A program made the translations under genes and the position numbers. Shown here piece after piece: positions 39,147 through 45,400 of a stretch of DNA of 53,813 nt. Numbering within the stretch: the stretch's first letter is position 1; every line of letters starts with the position of its first letter. Source of the stretch: Elusimicrobiota bacterium (GTDB lineage Bacteria; Elusimicrobiota; Elusimicrobia; UBA1565; UBA9628); assembly GCA_027327915.1 (NCBI GenBank), contig DAHVWT010000008.1, forward strand, positions 1 through 53,813. The letters are read 5' to 3'. The notes under the pieces were generated by a model. The model did not search any database. It was given only the letters and a program-made list of their open reading frames with translations, and was not told where the DNA came from.

Positions 39147-42100
39147 TTAGAACTGGAACACCATGTTGGCGCCCATCGTCAGCGACATATAGTCGGTTTG
39201 CGGCAGATACGGGTTGGTGAGGTAGGTAAAGCCCCCGTTGAGAATGATGCGCAGGTTCTTCGCCACCTGGTAGTCCGCGTTGGTGGTCAGGGACCAGGTG
39301 CGGTTGTTGTTGTACGTGACGACGGGCGAGGACTGCATGCTGTAGGACAGCGTCGTCGTCCAGAGGAGACGGTTGACCATCGTGAAGACGGTGTTGGTGA
39401 AGGGCAGCTTGAGCCCCTCGGGGAACTTGAAGTCGCCGCGCACGAGGAGGCTGGGCGAGAGCGTCGTCGTGTTGTTCGTCGCCTGTCCGGTCCCGAGGAC
39501 CGTCGTGTCCTTGGCGTAATAGACCTTGGGCGTGATGCTGAAATCCCCCTTGATGAACGTCGTCTGCAGCGTCGCGTCGATGTGGCCCACCGTCTGCGTG
39601 ACGGTGTTCGTGACAAGGCTGTCCGTCTGGGAATTGTTGGTGTTCACGCTCAGGAGGGTGTCGTAGCGCTTGAGGACCATCGTGCGCAATTCGATCCACA
39701 GCTGCGAGTCGCTCTCATAGGTTGATCCCACCGTCGTGTTCTGGTGGGCCTGATAACGCACGTTGGTTGTCGTCTGTCCAAACCATCGGCTGATGCCGAG
39801 GAGATCCTGGATGTCCGATAAGTTCGCCGTCACGTCGGGAAGGGTCTGGGAGATGCTTTCTCCCGCGGTGTCGTAGCTTCCCGTCCGGTTGACGGAATAA
39901 ACATAGTTGTCCAGGAAAGAGAAGGTCTTCAAGGCTTTCCAGCGGCCGCGGAGGTCGTAGGCCGAGAGCGGCGCCCAGCGCAGCGTCCCCAGGTAATCGT
40001 CGCGGAAGCTGTAGTTTGCCAGCTGGGCGAATGGGTCGCTCGTGTGGATGGGGGTTCTCAGCCAGAAAGCCCATTCGTCCGAGCCTGACATCGGGAGGTT
40101 TTCCCATCCCTCGCCGTCGTTGAGCTGATAGCTCATGGTGATGTTCATGGACCGCAGGAGCTTCGAGGAACGGAAGATGTCTCCGATGGCGAGCGGCAAG
40201 GCCACGGTGCCGTTCGACGTTCGAGTATAGGTCATGAGCTGGCCGACGCCGTAGACATAGTAATTGGTCGAGATGCTGATCGTGCCGTCCGTGTTGGTGG
40301 AAATCATGACGGCGGCGTTGCTCGAAACGTTGAGGAGGTTGTTCTCGTTGATGTTCGCCGTGTAGTTCACCTGGGGGTTGAGCCAACGGTTGAGCTTCCA
40401 GTTCGAGGTGAACCCCGCGGTCTCGGTCAGGGCCTTCGGGTACTGGGCCGAGTACTTCTGCCCGACCCCGTAGGGCGCGATGTCGCCGCTCCAGTCGTTG
40501 CGGTCCTCAAAGGTGGTCGAGAGGGAGTAGTTGGGGTCGAACGTCGAGCCGGTCCAGGGAACGAAGGACATCTGGAGCCCCATCGAGTGCGTGAAGTCCA
40601 CCTGGTCGTAGACGGGGGTCATGCTGCTTTCGAGCACGCTCATCGAATCGTACTGCACGGAAGAACGCGTGTAGGAATAATTGGCCGATATGGACTTCGG
40701 AAGGATGGGCAGCCGCGAGGCGAGCGTGTACTGCAGCGTGGCGTTGATCGTCTTGGTATCATCCGTGCGGTTTAAGGCGTCGTAGTGGGTGTTGGTGTGG
40801 AGCGCATTGACGTTGAGATGCGGGAGAGCCCCGTAGACGAAGGCGGCGTTGGCCGTCTCGTTCCACGTCGTGACCGTGCCCTGCTGGAGGAGATTGACGA
40901 GGTTGCTGTTCGTTCCGGTCATGTACTCGCTGGGGATGTCGGAAATCGTGCGCATGACGTTGAAGGACATGGGCAGGAAGTTGAACTTCGTGATGTTGAG
41001 GTAGGCCGAGGTCTGCTCGTTGTTCTGGTTTGTGACCACCGTCGTCGGCGTCATCCAGTTCTGGTCGATCGAACGGTCCTTGATTCCGAAGCTGGCGACT
41101 CCGGGGATCACGAAATCGGCTTGATAATCGTGGGCGTTGCCGATGCGGACAACGGGTTGGGAAACGAAAATTTCGTCCACGTAGACGATGCCCGTCCCGG
41201 CCGTGGCCCCGCCGTAGGCCGTGGAGCAGTTGCCTCCGGTGTTGCGCAGCCCGACCACGATTTCGCCTACCGTCTGGAGGCTCGGGATCCCGTCGGTTTG
41301 GACCATGTCGACCGTGGTGCCGGGAGGCGAGCCTGGACCCACTTGCCAGCCGCTCGCCACGTCAAAGCCGTTCATGATCTGTTCGATGTTGACTTCCTCC
41401 CAGCCGGTCGTCTCATTCGAGCCCGGCGGGGTCTGGGAGAGCGGCACCTGGACCTCCCAATAGCTCTGGGCCGCGCCGAAGCGCATGAAAAAGGTCATGC
41501 TGCTTTCGCAGGAGTCGTACTGCCCCCCTCCCGCCGCCTGTTCCTGGGCGTTCGGATAGAGCAGGAAGTGGAGCTGGCGGTGCTGGCTGATGTCGATCGG
41601 GGCCGGGAAAATTTCCTGTGTCGTGACGACGGCGCTCGCCGTATTGAGATCGTAGTAGTGCAGCGCGAGGGACTGCTCCTGGATGTTCTGGGTGTTCGAC
41701 TGCTGCTGGAGGTTCTGGATGCTCCCGTATTCCTGGTCAAAGACCTGTTCCGCGACGCCGCCGGCGTTGTAGATGGGGATATAGCTCGGGTCGTCGACGT
41801 TGTTGACCGGGACGACGGTCATGCTCGCGAAGCCAACGGGCGGGGCGTCGGTGGCGGGGTCGATCGCCTGGCCCGGCTGCCAGGAAGTCCCCACGACGTC
41901 GATGTTGGCGATCTTGATCGTGCCGGAGGAAGGGGCGGCCCCTTCGATGCAGGTTCCGTTGTTGTTGCTCGCGCAGTCGGCGTTCCAGCGCACCGTGACG
42001 CGAACCTCATGGATCGAGTTCCAACTGGTGACATCGGCGGTCGAGATGTTGAGCGGGATGAGGAAGGTCTGCCAGCCCCTGTCCTGCGTGTTCGAGGCCC

Positions 42101-44999
42101 CAGGGCCAAAGTCGATGACGGTGTGCGATGAGTTGTCCGTCTCGTCGAAGAGACCCGTCTGGCCGAATGGAGCCTGGTCGCCCAGGTAGCCATAGTTGCC
42201 GCCGTCGAAGGCGTCGGGATCGAGGATCCCGTTGCGGTTGAGGTCGTCGGACTCGATGACCCCCATGTTGGGGAAGAAGCGCTTCGAGGGGAAGCCGGGG
42301 ATGGGGGTCTGGTAGAGCCAGCCGATATCCTCCTGAGGGCTTACGATCCCGTCCCCGTCCGTGTCGTTGGTGCGCAGGATGCCGGAGCCGTCGGCGTCCT
42401 CGCTGATCGAGCCCAGGCGGAAGTTGATCGTGTTTCCGGAGTTATCGCCAAGCATGGTGACTTTGAGAGCTGTTTTCTGCGAGAAACTGATTCCTTGCGT
42501 CGAGAAGACATAGACGAGGGAGGCTTGGTTGGAGGCGAGCGGGTCGGAGAAGTTGTAATTGATGTCGAGCACCGTCTGGGTTTGCTGAGGGGTCGCCGAG
42601 GCCGAAGGGTTGATCGAGAGGATCGGATCGTATTCGTTTCCCCACGTCAGCAGCGTCGGGTCCGTGACGTTGTAGCTCGATTCATTCACCGTCAATCCGC
42701 CGAAGGTGCAGCCCGAAGCCGAGCAATTGGGGTCGGAGTAGCTCGAGTTATAGAGCGGATTGATGGTCGTCCCGACGGGAACGATGGGGTTGGCGGCGAT
42801 GTTCCAATTGGTCCAGAGGAGGTTGGCGATGGTGTCCTGGCCGATCCCCTCCATGTTGTCGACGATCGCGACGGAGTTCAAGTTGGGCGTGTAGCGGCTC
42901 TGCGCCGCCTCGAGAGAGAGATCCTTCAACTGGAGGTAGTGGCCCAGGAGGTCGATGTTCTGGAGCTTGACGGTGCCGTCGTAGTCGAGGATGCTGCCCG
43001 AGATGGCCGTGATTTCGGGCGCCGTGGGGGATTGGTTGCCGGCTTGGTAGAGGACGGTCGAGCCGATGCTGAAATGGTCGTTGAACTTGTAGCCTAAGCC
43101 GCCGCCCAGGATGGCGACGTTGGAGATGCCGGCTCCGGGCTCGACCTCGTAGCTGATGTTGAGGACCGAGGTCGGGCCGATCATGCTGGGATTGAAGAAC
43201 GTGATGAAGCCCGAGGTGTAGTCGATGAAGTAGTCCACGTTGCGCGTCAGCCTGCGCCCGTCGAGAAGCACGACGTCGCTCATGGGCGCGATGTTAGGAT
43301 CGAGCAAGAAGGTCTTCAAACGGAAGCTGTATTCAACGTGGATGATGTACTTCGAGATGGGGGGCTGGTTGTAGATTTGGGGGTCCATCTCGGACACGGT
43401 GCCGATTTGGACCATGAAGGGCTGTTGGAGATAAAAAAGCCCGTCGGGGAAGTCAACCGAGATCGTCTGGGGGTATTCCTCGGGCGGGTTCAGGTTCGGG
43501 CCGATGATCTGTTGGTTCTGGTTGAGGACCTGGATAAAGAAGTTCCCCTGGCCGTTGTCGGGAATGATCTGGGTCTGGCCGAGGAAATACCACGTCTTGA
43601 GCTCGCGGTCCCAACCCAATTGAGTCGAGGTCGATATCGGATTGCCGTAGGGATCGTCGGGGATCGGGACGTCGCCGGGCGTCTTGATGAGGCGGGGATT
43701 GCCGTCCCCGCCAAGTTGGTAGGGGTTGCTCGAGGTCTCGATCGAGAGATGGTGGCCCGTCGCGTCGATATAGTCGATGGCGATGGCGTAGCCCTGTTGG
43801 GTCGGCTGCGTGAGTTTGAGGAAGCCGTGAACGTAGTCGATCGTGTAGTTGACGCCGGCGACCAATTGCGTGAAGGTGCTCGTGACCACCGCCGCGGTGG
43901 ATGTCAGGTCCTCGGCCGTGAGGATGACGTTGTTCGTGTTGAAGACCATGGGCTGGAGAGTCGCGAGGTAGACTTTCTCCGAACCGGCGAGGATGGGGAG
44001 CCGTCCGGGGGCGCCGAAGGTGAGATCGTAGTACTGTTCTTGCAGGTAGGAGATGTCGCTGATGTTGGTCTGGACGAACTGGGTGTTGCCGATGAATTGC
44101 TTGACCTTGTTCGTGCCCATTTGGCGGCTCGCGATGAAGACGCCGCTCAAGCCGTGGTATTTGACCTTGCCGCTGATGCCGAAGAGCTGCTTGTCGTAGG
44201 AGAGGAATTCCGTGGGCGGGAGCGCCAAATCGATGTCTCCAAAGGAGACGTTCTGGACCGCCTCGCCGGGCTTGCCGTTGTAGATGACGTTGACGTCGTC
44301 ATGGTGGGCTACGGCGTCGTTATAGTCGACGTTGACCGAGATGCGGGGGCCGACCTTGCCCTGCATGCGCATCTGAAGCTGCTGGGTGATGTTGAGGGCT
44401 GTCGAGGTCATGGGCGCGCCCGTGACGGTTTGCGCGTGGAGATATTTTTTTTCGGTGTAGGAGAAGCCGATCGTTTTCCGGCCCATGACGGAAAGGCTCG
44501 TGCCATAGTCGGGGAGCTCGAACTCGGGCGGCGGGGGCTTGATGACCGCGAGGACCCCGCTTGAGATGCCGATATTCTCCTCGATCGACTCAATGACCGC
44601 CTCCCTCGGCTGCTGGCCCGCCTCCAGATGCTCCCGCGCCTGCGTCCAGGCCTCCAGGCTGTAGTTGAAGGGCCTGAACCGCTCCTCGAACTGAAGGAAA
44701 TTAGTCGGGGTTGAGGCCGCCGTGCTCGTCGAGCTCGGCGGCGGCGTGAGGATATACCGGGGATCGGGGCGGTCCAGAAGCAGGAAGGGCCCCGCCGATT
44801 CGAGAATAAGAGCCGGGCCCCCATTCTCTTGGGGCGCGGACGTTACGGCGGCAGTGGAGAAGTCATCGCCGGTGGAGAACTCGGCGGTGGAGGAGAAAAC
44901 CGTCGCGGTTGAGAATTCCTCCGCGGAAGCGATCTGGGGGACGCGCGCCGGCGCGCATAAGATAAAGAGATAGAGAAGGAGGCGCCCGAGGTGTCGCAA
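39147..44999 (-). CDS. SprA-like giant outer-membrane protein (1950 aa)
   Basis: Signal peptide; LSVMGRKTIGFSY; VNVDYND...DDVNVIYNGKPGEAVQNVSFGDIDLALPPTEFLSYDKQLFGISGKVKYHGLSGVFIASRQ resembles SprA/Sov N-terminal region; Ca-binding-like DTDGDGIVSPQED, DLNRNGILDPD; terminal FQF; TTG start. Confidence 0.75.
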   Translation of the reverse strand: MRHLGRLLLYLFILCAPARVPQIASAEEFSTATVFSSTAEFSTGDDFSTAAVTSAPQENGGPALILESAGPFLLLDRPDPRYILTPPPSSTSTAASTPTNFLQFEERFRPFNYSLEAWTQAREHLEAGQQPREAVIESIEENIGISSGVLAVIKPPPPEFELPDYGTSLSVMGRKTIGFSYTEKKYLHAQTVTGAPMTSTALNITQQLQMRMQGKVGPRISVNVDYNDAVAHHDDVNVIYNGKPGEAVQNVSFGDIDLALPPTEFLSYDKQLFGISGKVKYHGLSGVFIASRQMGTNKVKQFIGNTQFVQTNISDISYLQEQYYDLTFGAPGRLPILAGSEKVYLATLQPMVFNTNNVILTAEDLTSTAAVVTSTFTQLVAGVNYTIDYVHGFLKLTQPTQQGYAIAIDYIDATGHHLSIETSSNPYQLGGDGNPRLIKTPGDVPIPDDPYGNPISTSTQLGWDRELKTWYFLGQTQIIPDNGQGNFFIQVLNQNQQIIGPNLNPPEEYPQTISVDFPDGLFYLQQPFMVQIGTVSEMDPQIYNQPPISKYIIHVEYSFRLKTFLLDPNIAPMSDVVLLDGRRLTRNVDYFIDYTSGFITFFNPSMIGPTSVLNISYEVEPGAGISNVAILGGGLGYKFNDHFSIGSTVLYQAGNQSPTAPEITAISGSILDYDGTVKLQNIDLLGHYLQLKDLSLEAAQSRYTPNLNSVAIVDNMEGIGQDTIANLLWTNWNIAANPIVPVGTTINPLYNSSYSDPNCSASGCTFGGLTVNESSYNVTDPTLLTWGNEYDPILSINPSASATPQQTQTVLDINYNFSDPLASNQASLVYVFSTQGISFSQKTALKVTMLGDNSGNTINFRLGSISEDADGSGILRTNDTDGDGIVSPQEDIGWLYQTPIPGFPSKRFFPNMGVIESDDLNRNGILDPDAFDGGNYGYLGDQAPFGQTGLFDETDNSSHTVIDFGPGASNTQDRGWQTFLIPLNISTADVTSWNSIHEVRVTVRWNADCASNNNGTCIEGAAPSSGTIKIANIDVVGTSWQPGQAIDPATDAPPVGFASMTVVPVNNVDDPSYIPIYNAGGVAEQVFDQEYGSIQNLQQQSNTQNIQEQSLALHYYDLNTASAVVTTQEIFPAPIDISQHRQLHFLLYPNAQEQAAGGGQYDSCESSMTFFMRFGAAQSYWEVQVPLSQTPPGSNETTGWEEVNIEQIMNGFDVASGWQVGPGSPPGTTVDMVQTDGIPSLQTVGEIVVGLRNTGGNCSTAYGGATAGTGIVYVDEIFVSQPVVRIGNAHDYQADFVIPGVASFGIKDRSIDQNWMTPTTVVTNQNNEQTSAYLNITKFNFLPMSFNVMRTISDIPSEYMTGTNSNLVNLLQQGTVTTWNETANAAFVYGALPHLNVNALHTNTHYDALNRTDDTKTINATLQYTLASRLPILPKSISANYSYTRSSVQYDSMSVLESSMTPVYDQVDFTHSMGLQMSFVPWTGSTFDPNYSLSTTFEDRNDWSGDIAPYGVGQKYSAQYPKALTETAGFTSNWKLNRWLNPQVNYTANINENNLLNVSSNAAVMISTNTDGTISISTNYYVYGVGQLMTYTRTSNGTVALPLAIGDIFRSSKLLRSMNITMSYQLNDGEGWENLPMSGSDEWAFWLRTPIHTSDPFAQLANYSFRDDYLGTLRWAPLSAYDLRGRWKALKTFSFLDNYVYSVNRTGSYDTAGESISQTLPDVTANLSDIQDLLGISRWFGQTTTNVRYQAHQNTTVGSTYESDSQLWIELRTMVLKRYDTLLSVNTNNSQTDSLVTNTVTQTVGHIDATLQTTFIKGDFSITPKVYYAKDTTVLGTGQATNNTTTLSPSLLVRGDFKFPEGLKLPFTNTVFTMVNRLLWTTTLSYSMQSSPVVTYNNNRTWSLTTNADYQVAKNLRIILNGGFTYLTNPYLPQTDYMSLTMGANMVFQF

Positions 45000-45131
45000 C
45001 TAGTTGTCCTTTCCGTAGCAGGGCGCCAGCCCCCCTCTCGCGCGCGCGATGATAAAAGTAAGGGGAACGTATTGCGCTTTCAAGACTCGGCGTCCCCGGG
45101 CTCGCGGGAGGCGGGCGCCGGCTTTTCGGGC

Positions 45132-45176
45132 GGACAAAACAGAGCCATGGCCGCCTGGGAGGCGGCCATGGCTCTG
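45132..45176 (-). terminator. Perfect 17-bp hairpin with T tract (riboswitch expression platform)
   Basis: cagagccatggccgcct-ggg-aggcggccatggctctg at 45140-45156/45160-45176; minus strand continues GTTTTGTCC. Confidence 0.85.
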
Positions 45177-45205
45177 AAAACGACATCCGGCGTCAAAGCG
45201 CCGGG

Positions 45206-45318
45206 ACGCATTCAGGGACATCCCAGTTTCGGCAACCAGACGCTCCCCGACGGGGAGTCTTGGCTTTGCGCCCCCGCCTCGCGGCGAGTTTGCCTTTTTC
45301 GTCTTGTCCCAATGCGTC
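45206..45318 (-). ncRNA. GEMM / cyclic-di-GMP-I riboswitch aptamer
   Basis: Minus strand GACGCATTGGGACA...AAGGCAAACTCGCCGCGAGGCGGGGGCGCAAAGCCAAGACTCCCCGTCGGGGAGCGTCTGGTTGCCGAAACTGGGATGTCCCTGAATGCGTC: GGCAAAC, P2 with GNRA loop GCGA, GCGCAAAGCC, GGTTGCCG and long P1. Confidence 0.9.
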
Positions 45319-45372
45319 GCCCGGATTTTTGATCCAACCCCGTTCGCGCCCGGGCGTGAGACAAGCGCTATG

Positions 45373-45400
45373 AGTATAAGGCTGGGGTTTGAAAAGTCAA
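45373..45400 (-). promoter_or_regulatory. Sigma70-type promoter of riboswitch/SprA-like transcript
   Basis: Minus strand TTGACT-16 nt-TATACT. Confidence 0.8.

Follow-up and report, generated by a model that had tools for sequence, protein, structure and literature searches.

A c-di-GMP-I riboswitch ahead of a distant SprA homologue in Elusimicrobiota: a candidate OFF switch with its terminator inside a putative leader ORF

The window, a stretch of 53,813 nucleotides from the draft genome of an Elusimicrobiota bacterium, carries a c-di-GMP-I aptamer ahead of a gene for an SprA-like outer-membrane protein; all features of the window described here lie on the minus strand. The aptamer core (45228..45304), delimited by Rfam and a 36-sequence alignment, comprises P3 and a P2 with a GCGA loop, and the gene (39147..44999) encodes 1950 aa from a TTG at 44999. 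A promoter, TTGACT-16-TATACT (45373..45400), stands where an earlier note on this DNA had placed it: our consensus scan found TTGACT at 45400-45395 and TATACT at 45378-45373 with a spacer of 16, making 10/12 consensus matches, whereas shuffles gave 0.0 (sd 0.1). It is kept in three genomes of the genus, and the sister genus has TTGACA-16-TACACT at the same place. Between aptamer and gene lie a putative leader ORF, a small hairpin, an intrinsic terminator and a possible second promoter.

The identity of 45304-45228 as a c-di-GMP-I aptamer is almost certain. A cmscan of the entire window matched RF03167 (c-di-GMP-I-GGC) at 63.8 bits against a gathering score of 59 (E 7.8e-13), and RF01051 was matched at 64.4 bits against a gathering score of 35 (E 1.9e-12 per genome); the earlier note had called a GEMM riboswitch and proposed an Infernal search of Rfam, and both families score above their gathering scores. 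Sub-gathering matches (P17, Scr3202 and others) were taken as chance. P2 and P3 are supported by covariation, with 12 of 20 pairs altered on both strands in the 36-sequence alignment, and the GCGA tetraloop of P2 is of the GNRA type, as had been noted before. The interhelical C44-G83 pair is present, both columns being invariant across 36 relatives. In Vc1/Vc2, the contacts to c-di-GMP are G20, A47 and C92 (PMC4744006), and the model alignment places equivalents of all three Vc2 residues in the window aptamer; the same triad occurs in 83/96 related aptamers. RF03167 is the best Rfam match within the clan, and from its name and consensus we read "GGC" as the ligand-contact triad. The RF03167 consensus has G at the A47-equivalent position, whereas the window aptamer has A; we therefore treat the latter as the canonical c-di-GMP type and reject the GGC-variant identity. 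Another cyclic dinucleotide, such as 3',3'-cGAMP, is very improbable as the true ligand: nine relatives in the class (L009, L024, L026, L031, L034, L066, L070, L089 and L114) carry A at the Vc2 G20-equivalent, the change reported to permit cGAMP binding (PMC7288161), but the window aptamer has G20, A47 and C92, and with G20 kept cGAMP specificity is ruled out for it. Two of these A20-type aptamers, L026 and L031, precede PorV-like genes. The window aptamer is thus a fresh member of an established family and ordinary in itself.

The gene at 44999 was matched by the Sov/SprA model TIGR04189 with an E value of 5.8e-40 and 136.5 bits, below the curated equivalog cut-off of 200. All 12 scanned relatives of the protein match the same model, and a profile built from SprA-like proteins finds the F. 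johnsoniae SprA structures 6h3i/6h3j at about 7e-21. Judged by these matches, the product is a real but distant SprA homologue; we call it "SprA-like" because it is homologous yet falls under the equivalog cut-off. The named relatives of this SprA protein are from Elusimicrobiota MAGs, the best being 95% identical. The earlier note had recognized an SprA-like gene here, and this agrees with our result; its label "gliding / type IX" exceeds the evidence, as no part of a motor was detected and the score is below the SprA equivalog cut-off. GldM (TIGR03517) gave no match in 28 genomes, and a search for a gingipain-type C25 peptidase found none; the controls were silent too in both cases. Since these searches thus had no positive control, we do not claim that a T9SS motor or a C25 peptidase is absent. 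In the same genome (G000), there are 11 PorV-family matches and 3 matches to the sorting-tail model TIGR04183, and in relatives sorting tails often directly precede PorV genes (e.g., G007:C73).

The pairing of aptamer and gene, which the earlier note had proposed from this single locus, is retained across two genera. The riboswitch lies directly upstream of sprA on the same strand in 3/3 genomes of the genus (G000-G002) and in 5/5 genomes of the sister genus (G007, G015, G019, G022 and G025), that is, in 8/8, with SprA identity between the two genera of about 46%. At the sprA loci of other genera, a riboswitch was found in 0/13 (best 12.3 bits, E 0.27), and the 6 of 80 named SprA loci that have one all belong to these two genera. 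A riboswitch on SprA in general is therefore ruled out. On this conservation, the link between riboswitch and sprA is not a matter of chance. In the SprA tree the two riboswitch-bearing genera form a single clade with support of 97/98; because of this, and because the riboswitch is absent elsewhere, the simplest reading would be one gain, retained since the common ancestor of both genera.

Two helices overlap at the 5' side of the aptamer. The first, P0, pairs CTTGTCTCA (45357..45365), at the likely transcript start, with TGGGACAAG (45303..45311) over 9 bp, and its 3' strand overlaps the 5' strand of P1. The P0 helix has p=0.02 against shuffles and retains 9/9, 8/9 and 9/9 pairs across the three genomes of the genus; the equivalent position in the sister genus holds CCTGCCT/AGGCAGG. 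Helices of this kind adjoining the aptamer are common among relatives (16/95 at p<=0.05 against shuffles, about 5 being expected). The second helix, P1, had been described in the earlier note as unusually long, which is not supported as stated. Only its inner part is conserved: the 6 bp formed by GGGACA (45305..45310) and TGTCCC (45215..45220) are paired 6/6 in three genomes with two pairs changed on both strands (GAGGCA/TGCCTC in genus member G002), whereas the outer half, GACGCATT/AATGCGTC, decays to 7/8 and 5/8 pairs in relatives. The inner 3' strand holds the U and G of the leader AUG, which are paired when P1 forms. Mutual exclusion of P0 and P1, and an AUG within P1, are clear in this genus only.

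The putative leader ORF (45000..45221) runs from an ATG at 45221-45219, 6 nt downstream of the aptamer, through 73 codons to a TAG at 45002-45000 that directly adjoins the SprA TTG; a Shine-Dalgarno-like AAGGA (45007..45011), conserved in three genomes, precedes that TTG. The frame is open in 3/3 members of the genus, one of which carries a frame-keeping 24-nt deletion. In the five genomes of the sister genus, the ATG is 4 nt past the aptamer and 59-60 codons lead to a TGA overlapping the SprA TTG, so that all 8 of the 8 genomes in the two genera retain the frame. Indels within the leader ORFs measure 24 and 3 nt, and two upstream indels measure 1 nt each. At this G+C content, open frames this long are not unusual. 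The peptide is not conserved: its differences are scattered over all codon positions without a clear coding signature, which rules it out as a conserved functional product. The leader is probably translated, and since the peptide is not conserved, any use of the ORF would depend on the act of translation rather than on its product. The ATG found at the corresponding place in front of PorV genes seems to start the PorV reading frame itself; most PorV leaders have their AUG close to the aptamer and outside P1. An AUG within P1 is not supported as a general rule (24/64 leaders by a loose criterion).

Within this ORF lie the two hairpins that had been read in the earlier note. The small one, H (CCGGCG-CTTTGA-CGCCGG, 45187..45204), is found with the stem described there, at 45204-45187. 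The intrinsic terminator (45136..45176) has the perfect 17-bp stem that had been reported (45176-45140), followed by TTTT; its T tract is short (TTTTG, 4 T), and the stem is perfect (17/17) in this genome alone, relatives having 16/17 and 14/17 pairs. H at +19 to +40 and the terminator at +47 to +87 keep the same spacing in sprA and PorV leaders, and their stem sequences differ between leaders despite it. A hairpin at H's distance follows most related riboswitches, and a terminator-like site occurs within 200 nt (<=200 nt) downstream in 48/96 related leaders compared with 14-21 in shuffles. At PorV targets, the terminator or a strong hairpin falls in the target's own signal-peptide codons. The leader as a whole folds more stably than dinucleotide shuffles, by 5.2 sd. 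Its predicted ground state has P1 and the terminator already formed in the absence of ligand, and the aptamer and the terminator can coexist in one fold. A conserved antiterminator strand was looked for in 24 related leaders, and none was shared. The best complement to the 5' arm of the terminator is a 6-bp segment of the aptamer, no better than in shuffles, and a classical antiterminator was rejected. Without a conserved antiterminator strand, the evidence leans away from a classical two-hairpin switch, and the simple aptamer-terminator switch of the earlier note is not supported as stated. Could such a leader be locked off, or attenuate irrespective of c-di-GMP, with the aptamer still binding? 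The very stable 17-bp hairpin lacking an antiterminator would allow it, and the Bacillus Bc1 leader provides a precedent (PMC11218506). The covarying P1 and the ligand residues conserved over deep divergence favor ligand-dependent use instead, and we consider a locked leader improbable.

We propose that the c-di-GMP-I riboswitch controls the distant SprA homologue as an OFF switch in which the ribosome serves as antiterminator, and we give this proposal as a whole a probability of roughly 0.55. That the riboswitch controls sprA is likely; that the sign of control is OFF is a modest preference; and for the antiterminating role of the ribosome we would put the chances a little under even. In the absence of ligand, P0 would hold the 5' strand of P1 and leave the leader AUG open; a ribosome on the leader ORF would then stop the terminator from forming and reach the SprA start. 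When c-di-GMP is bound, P1 would close over the leader AUG, no ribosome would follow the polymerase, the terminator would form and sprA would be switched off. High c-di-GMP may in this way lead the cell to lower SprA/PorV-type surface secretion. We infer the steps from ligand binding onward. The OFF model is preferred because the AUG lies beside or in P1, the terminator is inside the ORF, no conserved antiterminator strand was found and the fold is compatible. Weighing against the proposal are the predicted ground state with P1 and the terminator formed in ligand-free RNA, the short T tract, the restriction of clear P0/P1 exclusion and of an AUG within P1 to this genus, the lack of a coding signature in the leader peptide, a possible bypass through the second promoter, and the Bc1 case, which shows that an aptamer followed by terminators may fail to respond to c-di-GMP in vivo (PMC11218506).

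An ON switch, in which c-di-GMP favors read-through or translation and SprA is made at high c-di-GMP, seems unlikely, at about a quarter of the weight. Both activating and repressing examples exist among c-di-GMP class I riboswitches; surface secretion and adhesion would suit a sessile, high c-di-GMP state, and FlgO/CsgG-like and fn3 surface proteins, along with FecR, are among the other targets in the class. Against this, P1, which the ligand is expected to stabilize, pairs with the leader AUG in this genus, and since aptamer and terminator fold together without conflict, there is no obvious route from ligand to antitermination.

A further alternative places most sprA transcription under a second promoter, TTGAAA-17-TACTTT (45055..45083), recognized downstream of the terminator from sequence and conservation; the riboswitch would then govern a short leader RNA or some of the transcripts. 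This stretch is kept within the genus, and G002 has a consensus -35, TTGACA, there. In other genera, which lack the riboswitch, a promoter lies near sprA: L051-L056, L060 and L062 have TTGACN-17-TATACT or TTACACT close to the sprA TTG. The -10 in the window is poor (3/6), however, and the promoter scan, which covered this part of the leader, did not report it; in the sister genus, TACAAT is retained with no -35 at the right distance, and the upstream module has long been maintained by selection. We hold this alternative to be slightly less probable again than the ON switch.

Two further aptamers in the window's genome, a 2.0-Mb draft with three c-di-GMP-I copies and 4 GGDEF domains (the type of domain that makes c-di-GMP), place this locus in a wider setting. 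The second copy (L004 6761-6686, minus strand) lies 4 nt before the ATG of a PorV/PorQ-family protein (6681-5059, minus strand) that matches NF033709 at 96.6 bits against a cut-off of 90 and carries TPR repeats. A strong terminator-like hairpin occupies signal-peptide codons of this gene (+55 to +83). The third copy (L005 877-804, minus strand) precedes a 182-aa protein with no family match, and short proteins like it (VGLEAQGVDPW..LDxRDA.GRPVS) follow riboswitches in several relatives. The aptamer is carried by 100/196 genomes of the class, and in a phmmer test of the class-wide set PorV/PorQ-like genes follow 37/96 related riboswitches; a T9SS-like surface pathway is therefore the main target. 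Individual loci vary. In the sister genus (L119-L122), the P2 region of the PorV-linked aptamer is expanded by an insertion of some 50 nt; L113 has tandem aptamers (853-932 and 1173-1245, the second weak at 29.9 bits) ahead of a single PorV-like gene; and at L079 (G044:C85) the riboswitch has on one side an open frame of about 12,000 aa with a sorting tail of the T9SS type, and on the other a PorV-like gene. The earlier reading, partly borne out, had missed this wider PorV-linked regulon as well as the leader ORF, P0 and the possible second promoter.

More tentatively, and with distinctly less confidence than in the OFF switch at sprA, we suggest a design common to these loci: the aptamer would gate an adjacent AUG, the ribosome would act as antiterminator and the terminator would sit inside the translated region, setting the level of T9SS-like surface secretion in much of the class. 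At PorV, the translated region would be the target's signal-peptide codons; at sprA, it would be a sacrificial leader ORF coupled to the SprA start. If true, an RNA would link a second messenger directly to an outer-membrane translocon and the PorV-type proteins that partner it, in a phylum that is largely uncultured, offering testable predictions for when Elusimicrobiota cells build their surface, and the locus would be a natural riboswitch with its terminator in translated sequence, fusing control of transcription and translation. We found no literature joining c-di-GMP riboswitches with SprA/T9SS, PorV or Elusimicrobiota in a search that covered papers outside subscription; this is consistent with the earlier note's remark that such a target is not a standard description. 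What could be new here is the set of targets and the design with a terminator inside an ORF.

Comparison with known systems sets the locus apart in several respects. With the Vibrio riboswitches Vc2/Vc1 of RF01051, it shares the aptamer fold, the GNRA loop of P2, the interhelical pair and the G20/A47/C92 contacts; unlike them, it has an SprA-like target, a P0 abutting the aptamer, an AUG 6 nt after it and a terminator in a putative leader ORF. For Vc1, neither a terminator nor an anti-SD is reported (PMC4744006). In Bc1 of Bacillus thuringiensis, the aptamer is followed by two terminators in an untranslated leader that is unresponsive to c-di-GMP in vivo (PMC11218506). The long expression platform, intrinsic termination and combined effects on transcription and translation recall Bc1; unlike Bc1, the present leader has a single terminator, which lies within a putative ORF running up to the start of the target. 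On the side of the target, the likeness to the Bacteroidota T9SS translocon, in which SprA/Sov works with PorV, consists in a homologous large outer-membrane protein and in PorV/Q-like proteins and T9SS-type sorting tails encoded in the same Elusimicrobiota genome, whereas the window protein differs from F. johnsoniae SprA in being about 400 residues shorter and in scoring below the equivalog cut-off.
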